Below, one piece after another: positions 1 to 6,141 of a DNA stretch of 6,460 bases. This DNA comes from an uncultured Lachnospiraceae bacterium. Lineage in GTDB: Bacteria; Bacillota_A; Clostridia; Lachnospirales; Lachnospiraceae. Numbering within the stretch: position 1 is the first letter of the stretch; every line of letters begins with the position of its first letter. Made by a program: the position numbers and the translations under genes. The notes below the pieces were generated by a model. That model saw nothing but the letters and a program-made list of their open reading frames with translations, searched no databases and had not been told where the DNA came from. The DNA is taken from positions 1 through 6,460 of the forward strand of contig CADBQK010000518.1 in the NCBI GenBank assembly GCA_902796775.1, given 5' to 3'.

Positions 1-495
1 GCCCAAGATGCCATTCTTTCCCGTCATAAGTGGATTGATCACATTGTCATCATATCCGGATCTCTGGATGAGAGAAGAGGCCCCGGTGTAGTTTGTAGCC
101 ACGAGAATAGGAACAATGACCTTCCCCTGACTAAGTCGGTGGAAGTTATTCAAATCAAGAGCATAGTCAAGAACTTGATCCACATCAGCTTCCAAAATTC
201 GCGATTCCCCTACTTTGAACTCGATGCAGAAAATGATTCCCCTGTAGAGTAAAACCACATCTATCCTTTTTCCAAGGCGTGGAATGTCATATTCGAAAAT
301 GATTTGTCCATTCTTATCCGCTAATCCAGAAAGGACATCTCTCATAATGGAGATTTCTCCGTTCCATGCTTCTAAGGATGTTGTTCTGACTTCGCCATGA
401 GTATTATCGACAAGCGCTCCCAGCACGGCTTTCTCGTCTTGAGATAGAAATTCAACAAAACTATTATCATATAAACAACGGTTGCTGATGCTCAT
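1..495 (-). CDS. DUF2075-type protein, N-terminal nuclease-like part (3' end outside window)
   Basis: An open frame of 165 codons starts at ATG 495-493 and runs off the left edge without a stop. A GAAAGG ribosome site (503-508) lies 7 nt before the start, and an extended -10 promoter lies further upstream. The sequence resembles the N-terminus of DUF2075 (Schlafen-group-3-like helicase) proteins as I remember them: a start like MSISNRCLYD, then IPRLGKRIDVVL (residues 71-82), IEFKVGE (91-97), DQVLDYALDL (106-115) and VPILVAT (128-134). D79, E92 and K94 fit a PD-(D/E)XK nuclease core, and Q107 with Y111 fits the QxxxY helix often seen in that fold. Full-length family members continue into a P-loop helicase domain, which would lie outside this window, so helicase activity is inferred from the family only. 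Such proteins often sit in defence islands. The gene is divergent from the rest and has its own promoter, so it is probably a neighbour rather than a component of the McrBC-like unit. Confidence 0.85.
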   Translation of the reverse strand, partial: MSISNRCLYDNSFVEFLSQDEKAVLGALVDNTHGEVRTTSLEAWNGEISIMRDVLSGLADKNGQIIFEYDIPRLGKRIDVVLLYRGIIFCIEFKVGESRILEADVDQVLDYALDLNNFHRLSQGKVIVPILVATNYTGASSLIQRSGYDDNVINPLMTGKNGILG

Positions 496-740: not shown

Positions 741-1202
741 ATGAAAGATCGAGAGATAGTAGTCTGTAGAAATTACAAATGTTTATATTATGACGATATT
801 GGCTGCTTTGCTGGTTACATCCACTGGGGAGTGGGTGAATATTGTGTTCTGTATCTTCATTGCAACCCGGCTGATCCGGTTGAGAAACTCATTGTTCAGT
901 TAGGGTTCGATGCTATTTATCACGATAGGTATTATTGGACGACGATGGCCATCTGGTTTGCATGTCAACGCTTCATCCCCTACTTTCGAAGCATCACCGG
1001 TTCTGAGGATGATCTTTGGGAAGAAGTTTTGCCTCAGCACCTTGTTCCTTGTGAGATTCAATTTGGAATTGACGGAACTCTTGAAGTTGGGTTCCAGAGC
1101 TTTTTCATCGGTAACCGGCAATCGGAGCTGTTTGTTAGTGGAAAGGTCGGCTACGGATTCACAAGTGTAAAGGATGGTTGTTACGAGATTCCGATCGTGT
1201 AG
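741..1202 (+). CDS. Hypothetical protein, 153 aa, cysteine- and aromatic-rich
   Basis: I do not recognise this protein. It is probably a real gene because a strong GAGGAGGA site lies 6 nt before the ATG and the frame is open for 153 codons in a region where the other frames hold only short shadows. The protein is rich in aromatics (HDRYYWTTMAIWF, residues 61-73) and has eight cysteines (9, 14, 22, 35, 41, 75, 104, 147). These are not arranged as clear CxxC pairs, so a zinc site cannot be claimed. No signal peptide, obvious transmembrane helix or nucleotide-binding motif is visible. The C-terminal half alternates hydrophobic and polar residues (EIQFGIDGTLEVGFQSFFIG, 105-124), suggesting beta-strands. 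It is separated by 320 bp from the McrBC-like unit, so it is probably transcribed independently. The reading immediately past the stop in the -1 frame looks protein-like, raising the possibility that this is a truncated version of a longer protein. Confidence 0.6.
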   Translation: MKDREIVVCRNYKCLYYDDIGCFAGYIHWGVGEYCVLYLHCNPADPVEKLIVQLGFDAIYHDRYYWTTMAIWFACQRFIPYFRSITGSEDDLWEEVLPQHLVPCEIQFGIDGTLEVGFQSFFIGNRQSELFVSGKVGYGFTSVKDGCYEIPIV

Positions 1203-1522: not shown

Positions 1523-2329
1523 ATGAATGACATGCATCTAATTAATGCTTCTTGTGCAGATCAAGAGGTTGATGTCGTTGTTAATGCCGCAAATGATGGA
1601 TTATGGGCTGGCGGAGGAATCTGTGGTGTAATCTTCAGGAAAGCCGGAATGTCGGAACTTAAGGCTGCCTGTAGCAAATATAAAACACCTTTGCGTGATG
1701 GACAGGCAGTTATTACGCCAGCGTTTAATATGAAGAATGCTAAAGCTATTATTCACGCTGTTGGCCCAGATTTTGCAAGAACTCCCAAAGCGTTCAAAGA
1801 GCTTTATGAAGCCTACTACAATTCATTAGTAGTTCTAAAAGAGCATGGATATCACAGTATATCTTTCCCCTTGATTAGTTCTGGTATTTTCGGTGGTTCT
1901 TTGCGTGATCCTGTTGGAGAATCGACAAAACAATGTATGAGAGCATACAAGAATTTTACAGAAGATTATCCGGATTATGAGATCGATGTCAAGCTCTGTG
2001 CCTACACAGCTTCGGAGATGGATGCTGCATTGAAAATGTGGGAAAGCATGCGTGACGAAATTGTGAGAGATACTGCTTATGATCGATGGAGCGCCGGTGC
2101 TGGTGCCGTTGGAAAGGCAGATGCCCCCTTCCCGTATGACTTTTCGAAAAAAGAAAAGACGAACGAAGAAAAGCCTGACGAGACGGCTGAAACTGAACAG
2201 GATGAGTTTGCTCCGAAAGAAGGTGATATGGTTTTTGATGAAGAAGAACAGGCCATTCTCGATGCAGCTGTTAAGAAAAGGACTGAGGATGCAATGAAAG
2301 CATATGATGAGATTGAAAAAACTTGGTAG
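1523..2329 (+). CDS. Macro-domain protein, first gene of the McrBC/LlaJI-like unit
   Basis: AGAGGAG (1511-1517) lies 5 nt before the ATG. Residues 1 to about 178 form a macro domain, the fold that binds ADP-ribose and related nucleotides. Visible motifs are VDVVVNAAN (16-24), AGGGICGVIFRKAG (29-42), IIHAVGPDF (76-84) and FPLISSGIFGG (115-125), all in the usual order. Against the MacroD/YmdB-like pattern GGGVDGxIHRAAG, the Asp important for hydrolysis is Cys34 and the following His is Phe38. The Asp of the GDIT motif that usually contacts adenine aligns with Ser10. The second Asn of NAAN (N24) and the glycine-rich loop remain. The fold is therefore secure, but ADP-ribosyl hydrolase activity is doubtful; a sensor or reader role is more likely. 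Residues about 190-268 are a Lys/Glu/Asp-rich tail, probably disordered then helical, with no recognised domain. No signal peptide or membrane helix is seen, so it is probably cytosolic. It lies 42 bp before the McrB-like gene and is likely cotranscribed with it. Confidence 0.9.
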   Translation: MNDMHLINASCADQEVDVVVNAANDGLWAGGGICGVIFRKAGMSELKAACSKYKTPLRDGQAVITPAFNMKNAKAIIHAVGPDFARTPKAFKELYEAYYNSLVVLKEHGYHSISFPLISSGIFGGSLRDPVGESTKQCMRAYKNFTEDYPDYEIDVKLCAYTASEMDAALKMWESMRDEIVRDTAYDRWSAGAGAVGKADAPFPYDFSKKEKTNEEKPDETAETEQDEFAPKEGDMVFDEEEQAILDAAVKKRTEDAMKAYDEIEKTW

Positions 2330-2371
2330 TTTTGCCACATATAATCACAAATAAGGCGAGGAAAATGCACG

Positions 2372-4711
2372 ATGAATAGCGACACAAGACTTAATGAATA
2401 CCAGAATGCAGCTGAAGTCCTTAAAGAATTTGCTCTTGAGAGCGGATCTGATATTGTTCCTTCTTCAGACTCTATAGAAAATGCTCTTGAAATCTTCAAA
2501 AAAGCATATTCACCAGATGTGCTTGAAGCGTTAGATGATGATTCTATCTTGTCATATATGTTTTATACAGCCGGTGATAATACAAATGCACTTTGTTGCT
2601 GGTTGGAGATGAATAAAGAATGCAAATCTTATTTTGGAAGTATCTCGGGTGGTTCTGCTTTTAAGTTTGGTCTCTTTCAGAAAAAAGCTACTGGCGAATG
2701 GCTGACAGGAAGTTCTCAAAAGCAACAAGTGCTTTCAGAAGACGAGGCACTCGCTCTCGGAAAGAAAATCAGAGATGCTCTCGTAGCAGGTGCCAGGATT
2801 ATTCAAAATGCTGATCTCAATTCCTTAGAGGCTTATGAGAAACTGGATGACGATCTTAAGGCTAACGTTGGAATTCAGTACTACAATTTGGGTTGGTTCC
2901 ACAAGTATTTCTCTATTATTTGTAACGATAAACTGAGTGGCTTTCACTCAGATGATTGGCAAATGCATGTCCTGCGTTCGTTAAGAATCAAACCAAGCAC
3001 CAAGTACTATGCCAGAAGTGGTCAAATATCGATGATACAGAACTATGCTGGATGGTATTATAGACAGTTTTTTGAAGTCTTTCACGGGCATTTCGGCGAG
3101 ATTAAGACGTTTGTTAGACTTGGTTCCTCGGACGAAAAGATAAACTATGCATCTGAATGGGCAAAAAGAGATGTTGTTGGTATTGGTTGGCCGGATCTAG
3201 GTGATCTTACAGAGTATGTTCACGGAGAAGGCATAGATAAAAAAGAGTTGCAAGCACGGCTTAATGAACTGTACTATCCAACAAACGAAAGCTTAGCGTC
3301 ACGGAAAGCAGGCGAAATTGCTCGGTTCTATAGTTGTGATAAAAACACTGTCTTTGTAGTTATGGATGGTGAAACTCTAATTGCCCTAGCAGATAATGTG
3401 GGGAGTTACTATTTTGATTCAAATAGCAATATGGGGCATATTCGTTCTGCTAATTGGAAATTCGTTTTCGGAGATTCTGAGAAGCTTCCGAAAAAGAGTG
3501 AAGGAAAACTAACATCGTGTTTTCAGCTAAAAGACGAAGAGAACCTCTTATTCTTATATGAAAAGTATTTCTATGGTGTGAATTCTCCAAAAGAAATAGA
3601 AAAAAACGATTCAGATAAGGAATTGAATGAAGAGCCTATCAAATCTGTTGTTTTTTATTCAGGTTTTGAATCGCATTATTCGCGGAATCGCATCGTATTC
3701 GGAGCACCTGGCACCGGCAAGAGTTATACAATCAATGCAGATAGAAAGCTGCTTTTAGGGACGGATAACGAAGATGATTATGAGCGAGTAACGTTCCATC
3801 CTGATTATTCCTACGCTAACTTTGTTGGAACATACAAACCAGTTCCGTCAAAAGACATTCATGGAAATGATATGATCACATATGCCTATGTGCCTGGCCC
3901 ATTTATGCGTGTTTATGTTAATGCGCTAAAAAACAGTCGTACCAGCAATCCCAGACCGTTTCTTTTAATCATTGAGGAGATTAACCGTGCCAATGTAGCC
4001 GCGGTTTTTGGAGATGTCTTCCAATTGCTTGATCGTGGTGATGATAACGTTAGTGAGTACCCCATACAAGCATCAGAAGATATAAGGAATTATCTTGCTA
4101 AGGAACTGGATATTTCTCCTCAGGAATGTTCAAAGATACGAATCCCGGATAATATGTTCATCTGGGCTACAATGAACAGTGCCGATCAGGGTGTATTCCC
4201 AATGGATACGGCGTTTAAGAGAAGATGGGACTTTACATATCTTGGAATCGATGATAGTGATAAAGACATTCAGAACAAGTATGTTACTTTAGGTGCAAAG
4301 AATCAAAGAGTTGAATGGAATGAGCTCCGCAAAGCAATTAATGAGTTTCTTTCAAGCGAGAAGATTAACGAAGATAAGCAGCTTGGACCATACTTTATAG
4401 CTCGTAATATTGTAGTTCCTGCAGATGGTGGAAGCGAGATTGATAGTCAGAAATTCAGAGATGTTTTTAAGCATAAGGTTCTTATGTACCTTTTTGATGA
4501 TGCTGCTAAACAGAAACGAGGAAAACTGTTTGAAGGAAGCTCAAAAGGACAGGCTCGATATTCAAAGATATGCGAAGCATTTGATGAACAAGGAATAGGT
4601 ATCTTCCATGCAGATATTCAAAATGCTGTAAAGATACATAGTGATGTGTCCGGTGATCAGGAAATGACTGATGACGATAATACAAGTGATGAGCAGGATA
4701 GCGACGTATGA
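2372..4711 (+). CDS. McrB-like AAA+ NTPase (LlaJI R1-type) with PUA/EVE-like N-terminal reader
   Basis: This is the motor subunit of a McrBC-type restriction complex; by family knowledge it hydrolyses GTP (or another NTP) and translocates DNA or activates the nuclease partner encoded next. AAA+ motifs are clear: Walker A GAPGTGKS (444-451), Walker B LLIIEEINRANV (531-542), and the McrB signature MNSADQG (601-607) followed by FPMDTAFKRRW (609-619), whose basic residues are arginine-finger candidates. The 430-residue N-terminal region shows a block around FGSISGGSAFKFGLF (88-102), a second with GWFHKYF and DDWQ (174-197), and a third, about 245-365, with VVGIGWPDLGDL (268-279) and HIRSANWKF (356-364). 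The third resembles PUA/EVE-like domains that read modified bases in McrBC-type proteins; that match is from memory. The C-terminus is acidic. The start has GCGAGG upstream, with 10 nt from GAGG (2358-2361) to ATG 2372. The stop overlaps the next ATG (ATGA), indicating translational coupling. Confidence 0.92.
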   Translation: MNSDTRLNEYQNAAEVLKEFALESGSDIVPSSDSIENALEIFKKAYSPDVLEALDDDSILSYMFYTAGDNTNALCCWLEMNKECKSYFGSISGGSAFKFGLFQKKATGEWLTGSSQKQQVLSEDEALALGKKIRDALVAGARIIQNADLNSLEAYEKLDDDLKANVGIQYYNLGWFHKYFSIICNDKLSGFHSDDWQMHVLRSLRIKPSTKYYARSGQISMIQNYAGWYYRQFFEVFHGHFGEIKTFVRLGSSDEKINYASEWAKRDVVGIGWPDLGDLTEYVHGEGIDKKELQARLNELYYPTNESLASRKAGEIARFYSCDKNTVFVVMDGETLIALADNVGSYYFDSNSNMGHIRSANWKFVFGDSEKLPKKSEGKLTSCFQLKDEENLLFLYEKYFYGVNSPKEIEKNDSDKELNEEPIKSVVFYSGFESHYSRNRIVFGAPGTGKSYTINADRKLLLGTDNEDDYERVTFHPDYSYANFVGTYKPVPSKDIHGNDMITYAYVPGPFMRVYVNALKNSRTSNPRPFLLIIEEINRANVAAVFGDVFQLLDRGDDNVSEYPIQASEDIRNYLAKELDISPQECSKIRIPDNMFIWATMNSADQGVFPMDTAFKRRWDFTYLGIDDSDKDIQNKYVTLGAKNQRVEWNELRKAINEFLSSEKINEDKQLGPYFIARNIVVPADGGSEIDSQKFRDVFKHKVLMYLFDDAAKQKRGKLFEGSSKGQARYSKICEAFDEQGIGIFHADIQNAVKIHSDVSGDQEMTDDDNTSDEQDSDV

Positions 4712-6141
4712 TCTCGAAGTATTTGAGAGAACAAAAAAGGTATACTCAAAAAGAACTGTGTAAAGCGTTTGAGTGCTCGGAAGAGAGAGTTGTTCCGATA
4801 ATTCGTAAGCTAAAGGAATTTGGGGTGCTGAAAACCGTCAAAGCAACTGATATCCAACGAGATATGTCCGATCTTGTTGATGAGGATGTTGAGGTTGCTG
4901 ATGTTGAGATCGGTGAAAATGAATACTTATATGTCTTCACATTTGTTGGAGTAATTGTTGTTTCTGGAAGAGTGCTAAAGTGCTATCCCAAATACATTCT
5001 GCGCTCCACGGAACCAAAGGATGAGTTGCATCAGGTTCTGCAGGTCCTTGAAAAATACAACTCGAAGGAACAGATTATTCGTATGTTTAACGACAGTAGT
5101 GAAACAAGTTCCTTTAACCTTCTGGCGGTATTACTATTCTTAATTCAAGATTTCTTTGAAAACGGCGTATACAGTAATACGGAAGATATCATTGAGACTA
5201 ATGGTTCAGGCGAAATACTTTGGGACAAAACAATTAATGAGACATTTACTCTTCTTTCAAATAATAGGCCATATTATATCGACATCCAGACAAAAAGACG
5301 AGTAACTGATGATTTTGACTATTTCAAGAGGCTCCATGAGTGCATATTAACAAGAGCATCGAAAGAACTGAAAGATGCGGATCTTTTGGATTTGTTTGAA
5401 ATAACGGAGATTGATCTAACTGACGAAAAACTAGACGAGTTTGGAGACAAGGAGTATATACTTGGTCGAATTGAAAACGAATTGAATACTCAATTCAACA
5501 CTCGAAAACAGTTGGTGTTAAAAACCATCTACGCGTATATCAGTCACAGTGGAAGTCTTTACGATACAGATTGCCTTTCTCTTTTTGGAACGAATAGTTT
5601 TAATCTGGTCTGGGAAGAAGTTTGTGCAGAAATCATGGATAACCAACTGGATAAAAAGCTGGGGACTCTCCAGCTTCCAAAACCACTATGCCCGGAATAC
5701 AACAGAAATGAGAAATTGATAGAAATCATAGAAAAACCGTTATGGTCGGCAACTGGAATAACTGCTCGTGATACCCTTATTCCAGATTTGATTGCTATTT
5801 CAGGGAAACAGTTTATTATTGTCGATGCAAAGTACTATAATGCAATACTTAATCATGGGCTTCCCCCTAAAGGGCAGCCTGGCATTGAATCTGTGACAAA
5901 GCAGTATCTATACCAACTTGCGTATAAGAAGTTCATTTCGGATCATGGTTTCTCTTCAGTAAAAAACTGCTTTGTTATGCCAACAGAGAATCATAATGTT
6001 GAAAGCCGTGGAGAAGCGTCGCTTAATATGCTGACTGAACTTGGCTTGCAGAATATAAAAGTTCGATTCCTGCCGGCAACAATGGCGTACGATCATTATT
6101 TGTTTGGTAAGAACCTTGATTTAGAAGTATTGGGCCTTTGA
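4708..6141 (+). CDS. McrC-like LlaJI-family restriction endonuclease subunit
   Basis: This is the nuclease partner of the preceding McrB-like motor. The ATG overlaps that gene's TGA by 4 bp, with only a weak AGGA upstream, so it probably depends on coupled translation; this should give roughly tied expression. Residues 1-45 look like a winged-helix DNA-binding segment (YTQKELCKAFECSEERV, then IIRKLKEFGVLKTV). Residues 73-97 hold the strand-rich block YLYVFTFVGVIVV ... VLKCYPKYI typical of LlaJI R2-like proteins as I remember them. The middle has the McrC-like GEILWDKTIN (168-177) and a DDFDYFKRLHECIL stretch (201-214). The C-terminal nuclease shows LIPDLIAI (357-364) then IIVDAKYY (370-377): D360 and D373-A-K375 form the PD-(D/E)XK core, with YQLAY (402-406) as the supporting Q-helix. 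All key residues are intact, so an active endonuclease is expected. In LlaJI the partner genes include two cytosine methyltransferases; none is present here. Confidence 0.88.
   Translation: MISKYLREQKRYTQKELCKAFECSEERVVPIIRKLKEFGVLKTVKATDIQRDMSDLVDEDVEVADVEIGENEYLYVFTFVGVIVVSGRVLKCYPKYILRSTEPKDELHQVLQVLEKYNSKEQIIRMFNDSSETSSFNLLAVLLFLIQDFFENGVYSNTEDIIETNGSGEILWDKTINETFTLLSNNRPYYIDIQTKRRVTDDFDYFKRLHECILTRASKELKDADLLDLFEITEIDLTDEKLDEFGDKEYILGRIENELNTQFNTRKQLVLKTIYAYISHSGSLYDTDCLSLFGTNSFNLVWEEVCAEIMDNQLDKKLGTLQLPKPLCPEYNRNEKLIEIIEKPLWSATGITARDTLIPDLIAISGKQFIIVDAKYYNAILNHGLPPKGQPGIESVTKQYLYQLAYKKFISDHGFSSVKNCFVMPTENHNVESRGEASLNMLTELGLQNIKVRFLPATMAYDHYLFGKNLDLEVLGL

Follow-up and report, generated by a model that had tools for sequence, protein, structure and literature searches.

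The stretch of DNA analysed here, 6,460 nucleotides from a contig of an uncultured Lachnospiraceae bacterium (CADBQK010000518.1; hereafter the window), carries three intact genes on the plus strand that encode, in this order, a macro-domain protein, an McrB-like AAA+ motor and a LlaJI-family nuclease (Table 1). We favour, with moderate confidence, the interpretation of this operon as a type IV-like restriction system that depends on DNA modification and is made of LlaJI-family parts. In such a system, the predicted EVE/YTH-like domain of the motor would bind a modified base in incoming DNA, the McrB-type GTPase ring would engage the DNA and move on it, and the LlaJI-family PD-(D/E)XK nuclease would cut, modified DNA being the substrate that we infer. 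Attack on marked DNA would render both a protective methyltransferase and a specificity part for unmethylated sites dispensable, and neither is seen in the window. The predicted reader, together with the absence of a specificity part, can account for the lack of methyltransferases without recourse to the macro protein, which is probably co-transcribed with the motor and nuclease, may bind an ADP-ribose-type ligand and is possibly a captured neighbour, an accessory of unproved role.

A LlaJI-family nuclease paired with an McrB-like motor

The gene order, the 42-bp gap between the macro and motor genes and the 4-bp overlap between the motor and nuclease genes (4708-4711), all noted in a preliminary description of this DNA, agree with the open reading frame (ORF) coordinates. 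The nuclease matches the Pfam family RE_LlaJI (PF09563, E 2.2e-50, 172.3 bits against a cut-off of 23.6) and the PADLOC model REase_II (E 8.1e-165), and its PD-(D/E)XK motif takes the form PD..DAK. PF09563 is its sole Pfam match at E<=0.001, and the canonical McrC family found in type IV systems (PF10117) gives none at that threshold; the earlier assignment to the LlaJI type is supported. The motor matches AAA_5 of Pfam (E 2.5e-8) and REase_II of PADLOC (E 8.3e-118), is related to McrB by NCBIfam and Protein Data Bank (PDB) matches, as had been proposed, and contains the motifs GAPGTGKS (444), IIEEINR (533) and MNSAD (601).

As far as the part of the LlaJI report drawn on here describes it, the Lactococcus system likewise pairs an McrB-like motor (R1) with a PD-(D/E)XK nuclease (R2), but it also comprises two 5mC methyltransferases and a site-specific DNA-binding part at the N-terminus of R1, and it restricts unmethylated DNA (PMC1459862). 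The window shares with LlaJI the nuclease family and its pairing with an McrB-like GTPase, but adds a macro gene and has no visible methyltransferases or R1-type specificity part.

Table 1. Features of the three-gene operon (window positions).
Feature	Position	Strand	Details
Macro-domain protein	1523..2329	+	268 aa; ORF call, Pfam domain at residues 20-128
Macro C-terminal extension	2063..2326	+	residues 181-268; disordered linker and conserved end
Conserved tail end	2222..2326	+	residues 234-268; common to P0002, P0007, P0008, P0010-P0014, P0045
Macro-motor gap	2330..2371	+	42 bp; ribosome-binding-site-like stretch, judged by eye
McrB-like AAA+ motor	2372..4711	+	779 aa; without N-terminal specificity extension
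Predicted EVE/YTH-like modified-base-reader domain of motor	3095..3586	+	~residues 242-405; fold by model
McrB-type AAA+ GTPase domain	3680..4624	+	~residues 437-751; PDB McrB matches, motifs
LlaJI-family nuclease	4708..6141	+	477 aa; PF09563, PDLC03447
PD-(D/E)XK motif	5782..5832	+	nuclease residues 359-375; motif inspection

The methyltransferases of related loci are missing

No methyltransferase model of Pfam matches any of the five window ORFs scanned (E<=0.001), and none is encoded in the 2371 bp that lie upstream of the motor, where a LlaJI-type locus would have one adjacent. Searches by tblastn with 1087 ORFs from 83 related loci, methyltransferases included, found no remnant in the window flanks at E<=0.01; the one match shown is antisense and lies inside the macro gene. 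The preliminary description had also seen no methyltransferase, and the comparison with relatives makes this exceptional among LlaJI-kind loci: a methyltransferase lies within 4 kb upstream of the motor in 68 of 70 testable related loci, within 100 bp of it in 54, and all 68 end within 1831 bp. The remaining two (L042 and L198) have it downstream, 2.7 kb away in L042.

The 70 loci were drawn from 93 nuclease- or motor-bearing loci in genomes, viral contigs and phage records by removing 11 exact duplicates, four without a nuclease match in the DNA analysed (L101, L140, L146, L192), five without an intact motor ORF by regular expression (L027, L043, L053, L148, L149; three of these, L043, L148 and L149, do carry methyltransferases) and three whose motor lies at the edge of a contig (L020, L105, L139). 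Because near-identical loci remain unmerged in this set, its 70 members are not independent. A sequence motif, or a tblastn match to either of two phage enzymes from L046, served to recognise methyltransferases, and three that the motif missed (L019, L040, L144) were checked and belong to PF00145. LlaJI-type cassettes with methyltransferases also occur in Ca. Heliusvirales gut phages (L046, L047, L199, L200).

It is very improbable that the operon is a decaying remnant from which methyltransferases and specificity were lost. Relatives that retain only a motor fragment do exist (L027, L053), but the three ORFs and their motifs are intact, and full-length motor and nuclease homologues with 97% identity are found on other contigs (P0241, P0121, P0122), which also indicates that the window is not a one-off assembly.

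A predicted reader and no visible specificity part

Two features of the motor had escaped the preliminary description, namely the reader predicted from its modelled fold and the lack of the usual specificity part. We suggest that the EVE/YTH-like domain, which follows a helical part of ~240 residues and precedes the GTPase, may bind a modified base, as would be expected of McrB in a type IV system. Judged from the parts of the cited papers used here, EVE-McrB/McrBC type IV systems are alike in having an EVE-like reader at the McrB N-terminus and no methyltransferase seen, but differ in their nuclease, which is McrC (PF10117) rather than PF09563 (PMC7641849); the operon of the window also has a macro gene. 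Similarly, the McrBC of Thermococcus gammatolerans has a YTH reader ahead of the McrB GTPase, but the window has another nuclease partner and the additional helical part before the reader (PMC7680126).

The first ~400 residues of the motor form a core that recurs in a subset of the relatives. Ten of 14 distinct relatives with a full core have an extra N-terminal part fused ahead of it, while the motors of the other four (L005, L023, L039, L199), of 749-755 aa, lack such an extension and are preceded by a separate 303-304-aa gene between the methyltransferases and the motor. This set omits L103/L104 and L200 (partial core), L139 (contig edge), L049 and L100 (same as L039) and the viral re-fetches L150-L172; L103 and L200 have a fused N-terminal part too. 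The McrC-type loci L140/L192 were kept apart and used separately; at L192 (4805-8400 and neighbours), a core-bearing McrB with a PF10117 McrC lies near apparent repeat arrays and Cas1/Cas2-like proteins, as judged by eye. The fused parts of L111 and L047 are also found on core-less motors (L010, L016, L052), and a short similarity connects the separate 303-304-aa protein with the fused parts of L200 (38% over 53 aa, E 2.9e-5) as well as L008, with E-values that refer to a database of few sequences. From these patterns in the sequences, we suggest that the fused and separate N-terminal parts are exchangeable specificity modules. The motor of the window starts at the core and has neither form; a long extension is likewise absent from at least 16 motors in the database (759-809 aa). 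The B3 fold of LlaJI R1 is not among the folds listed, which excludes nothing.

A rival to a modification-dependent system is an ordinary LlaJI-type II system whose methyltransferase is encoded downstream or at some other place in the genome and whose specificity is supplied by the core or by another gene, an alternative that we consider unlikely but not negligible. A methyltransferase lies close by in each of the 70 testable relatives, and since the window ends 319 bp past the nuclease, a downstream enzyme placed as in L042 would escape view; the upstream position seen in 68 relatives, however, falls at distances that the window covers. Nor is a specificity part found in cis. The obvious candidate, a 153-aa ORF at 741-1202 (plus strand), has no family match in Pfam (E<=0.01), NCBIfam, PADLOC or PHROGs and is matched by none of the 1087 ORFs of the related loci (E<=0.01), although a specificity part of a different type, this ORF for instance, may yet be present.

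The macro protein lacks the MacroD-type aspartate and has a conserved tail

The macro protein matches the Pfam family Macro (PF01661, E 1.3e-26), and its model (mean pLDDT 68.7) is nearest in fold to E. coli YmdB (5cb3, Foldseek E 7.8e-13). The modelled fold and the retained NAAN, GGG and SSGIFG loops make ligand binding plausible. While the overall fold is shared with MacroD/YmdB-type macrodomains, residues 30-35 read GGGICG in place of the GGGVDG motif. The Asp of this motif, present in the DR_2288 and YmdB alignments and catalytic in MacroD/YmdB, is replaced by Cys34, a residue near-invariant in 30 aligned sequences; the window's macro protein thus lacks the residue that marks a MacroD-type ADP-ribosyl hydrolase.

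A second difference from MacroD/YmdB is the C-terminal tail of ~90 residues, which is acidic, with pLDDT below 50 at residues 181-231 and a predicted helix at 240-267. Its end is conserved in nine further proteins among the best 120 of 3060 macro matches, so the tail is probably functional somewhere. Nothing in the related loci matches the tail convincingly (best E 0.17), and a degenerate tail pattern gave no match in viral contigs or in 212 loci. Whole genomes yielded no macro protein with the tail end: in overlapping sets, the furthest match reached 238 of 268 residues with two internal stops (397 genomes, E<=1e-20), 209 of 222 with a stop (392 genomes, E<=1e-40) and 179 and 177 (two sets of 121 genomes, E<=1e-60); a set of 116 genomes (E<=1e-40) gave no match at all, an outcome that carries no weight. 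Single-protein queries found no macro relative in viral contigs; an alignment query found one (L099), matched over 1-176 of 222 only and hence without the tail end.

The macro gene as neighbour or partner

The window's macro protein has no match within 4 kb of the motor in any of the 70 testable loci (tblastn, E<=1e-4), a count that divergent macros such as that of L015 escape because of the query and threshold. Macro genes do occur ~5-7 kb upstream of the nuclease in L041 and L015, beyond their methyltransferases; in L015, a DarT-macro pair as in DarTG (3045-4679) lies upstream of a broken-up methyltransferase/McrB/LlaJI locus. The preliminary description had held that adjacency confined to this lineage would speak against a functional link, and, as far as sampled, the adjacency is seen only in the window.

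In a sample of 397 genomes, macro matches (E<=1e-20) occur in 53 and motor matches (E<=1e-40) in 21; two genomes have both, once 88 kb apart and once on different contigs, that of the motor being just 4195 bp long. A second draw of 392 genomes gave 14 macro (E<=1e-40) and 16 motor matches (E<=1e-60), with one genome having both, already present in the first draw. A LlaJI-family nuclease is found in one of 20 genomes with close macro relatives, ~86 kb away, in the same both-match genome. The close tail-less relatives stand in varied contexts, beside HD-like, Nudix-like and other genes (named by eye), and macro domains occur in 24 of 26 genomes drawn from 44 nuclease-bearing genome loci, so that chance meetings with nuclease loci are possible. 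The possibility that the motor-nuclease pair settled next to a stand-alone macro gene with which it has no connection, which is compatible with a type IV-like system, has in our estimate a little less than an even chance; each functional role of the macro protein, taken singly, is less likely. This possibility sits less easily with the shared strand, the 42-bp gap, the leading position and the long conserved tail.

Two further macro genes were observed elsewhere. In the gut phage IMGVR 15682261 (L202, 2225-6029), a 344-aa macro gene whose type is more distant (38% identity) likewise neighbours restriction genes, as it comes after an annotated methyltransferase and a ResIII-type restriction helicase. 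At L086 (589-2691), a microbial PARG domain is fused to a macro domain of the same type as the window's in a protein of 700 aa, whose C-terminal part has no Pfam match at E<=0.01.

The functional link put forward in the preliminary description, in which the macro protein gates the nuclease by sensing or clearing an ADP-ribose-derived signal, with Thoeris-like logic, finds no support so far, and we regard it as improbable. The operon position and the three loops with their plausible ligand binding speak for it, but the five window ORFs scanned contain no match to DarT, the partner in DarTG, or, in Pfam at E<=0.001, to TIR, the partner in type II Thoeris, or to ADP-ribosyltransferases or sirtuins; the arrangement does not recur in the 70 loci, and Cys34 occupies the place of the MacroD-type Asp.

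Equally doubtful is a role as recognition subunit, in which the macro protein would guide the motor and nuclease to a nucleotide mark of the ADP-ribosyl kind or one like it, while its tail docks on the motor, a contact that we could only infer. The macro gene holds the position of the separate 303-304-aa gene of L005, L023, L039 and L199, and the conserved tail end is a predicted helix. The tail, however, has no convincing counterpart in the related loci, the arrangement is not seen at another locus, a predicted reader is already present in the motor, and the longest contigs of tailed macro proteins are not those of the listed motors and nucleases (by eye, best 120 of thousands each). We give little credence to a wider proposal in which the macro protein replaced the exchangeable specificity subunit of a McrB/LlaJI machine and, with the EVE-like reader, aims at an ADP-ribose-type DNA mark or is triggered by an ADP-ribose-derived ligand, methyltransferases being unneeded.

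Surroundings of the operon

A partial gene at window 1-495 (minus strand) matches the PADLOC candidate-defence model PDC-S41 (E 3.3e-45), so the operon may sit in a defence region. Promoter and terminator scans of the window did not rise above shuffles, and no near match was found in plasmid DNA. Most of the named relatives belong to the Lachnospiraceae or to other Bacillota.

Implications

If the macro protein takes part, ADP-ribose biology would be linked to McrB-type restriction. Among the titles and opening abstract lines surveyed, no pairing of a macro domain with McrB-type restriction was found; in the portions considered, a McrBC census mentions methyltransferase-linked McrB GTPases (PMC11090510), the terms 'macro' and 'LlaJI' occur neither there nor in an EVE survey (PMC7641849), and two papers on macro functions name no macro/McrB-type system (PMC9503650, PMC11833690).

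If the operon is indeed modification-dependent, a methylation-protected restriction system can become one that attacks marked DNA. The route would be the shedding of the specificity part and the methyltransferases while the EVE-like reader is kept, and the operon would then appear to stand midway between types II and IV.
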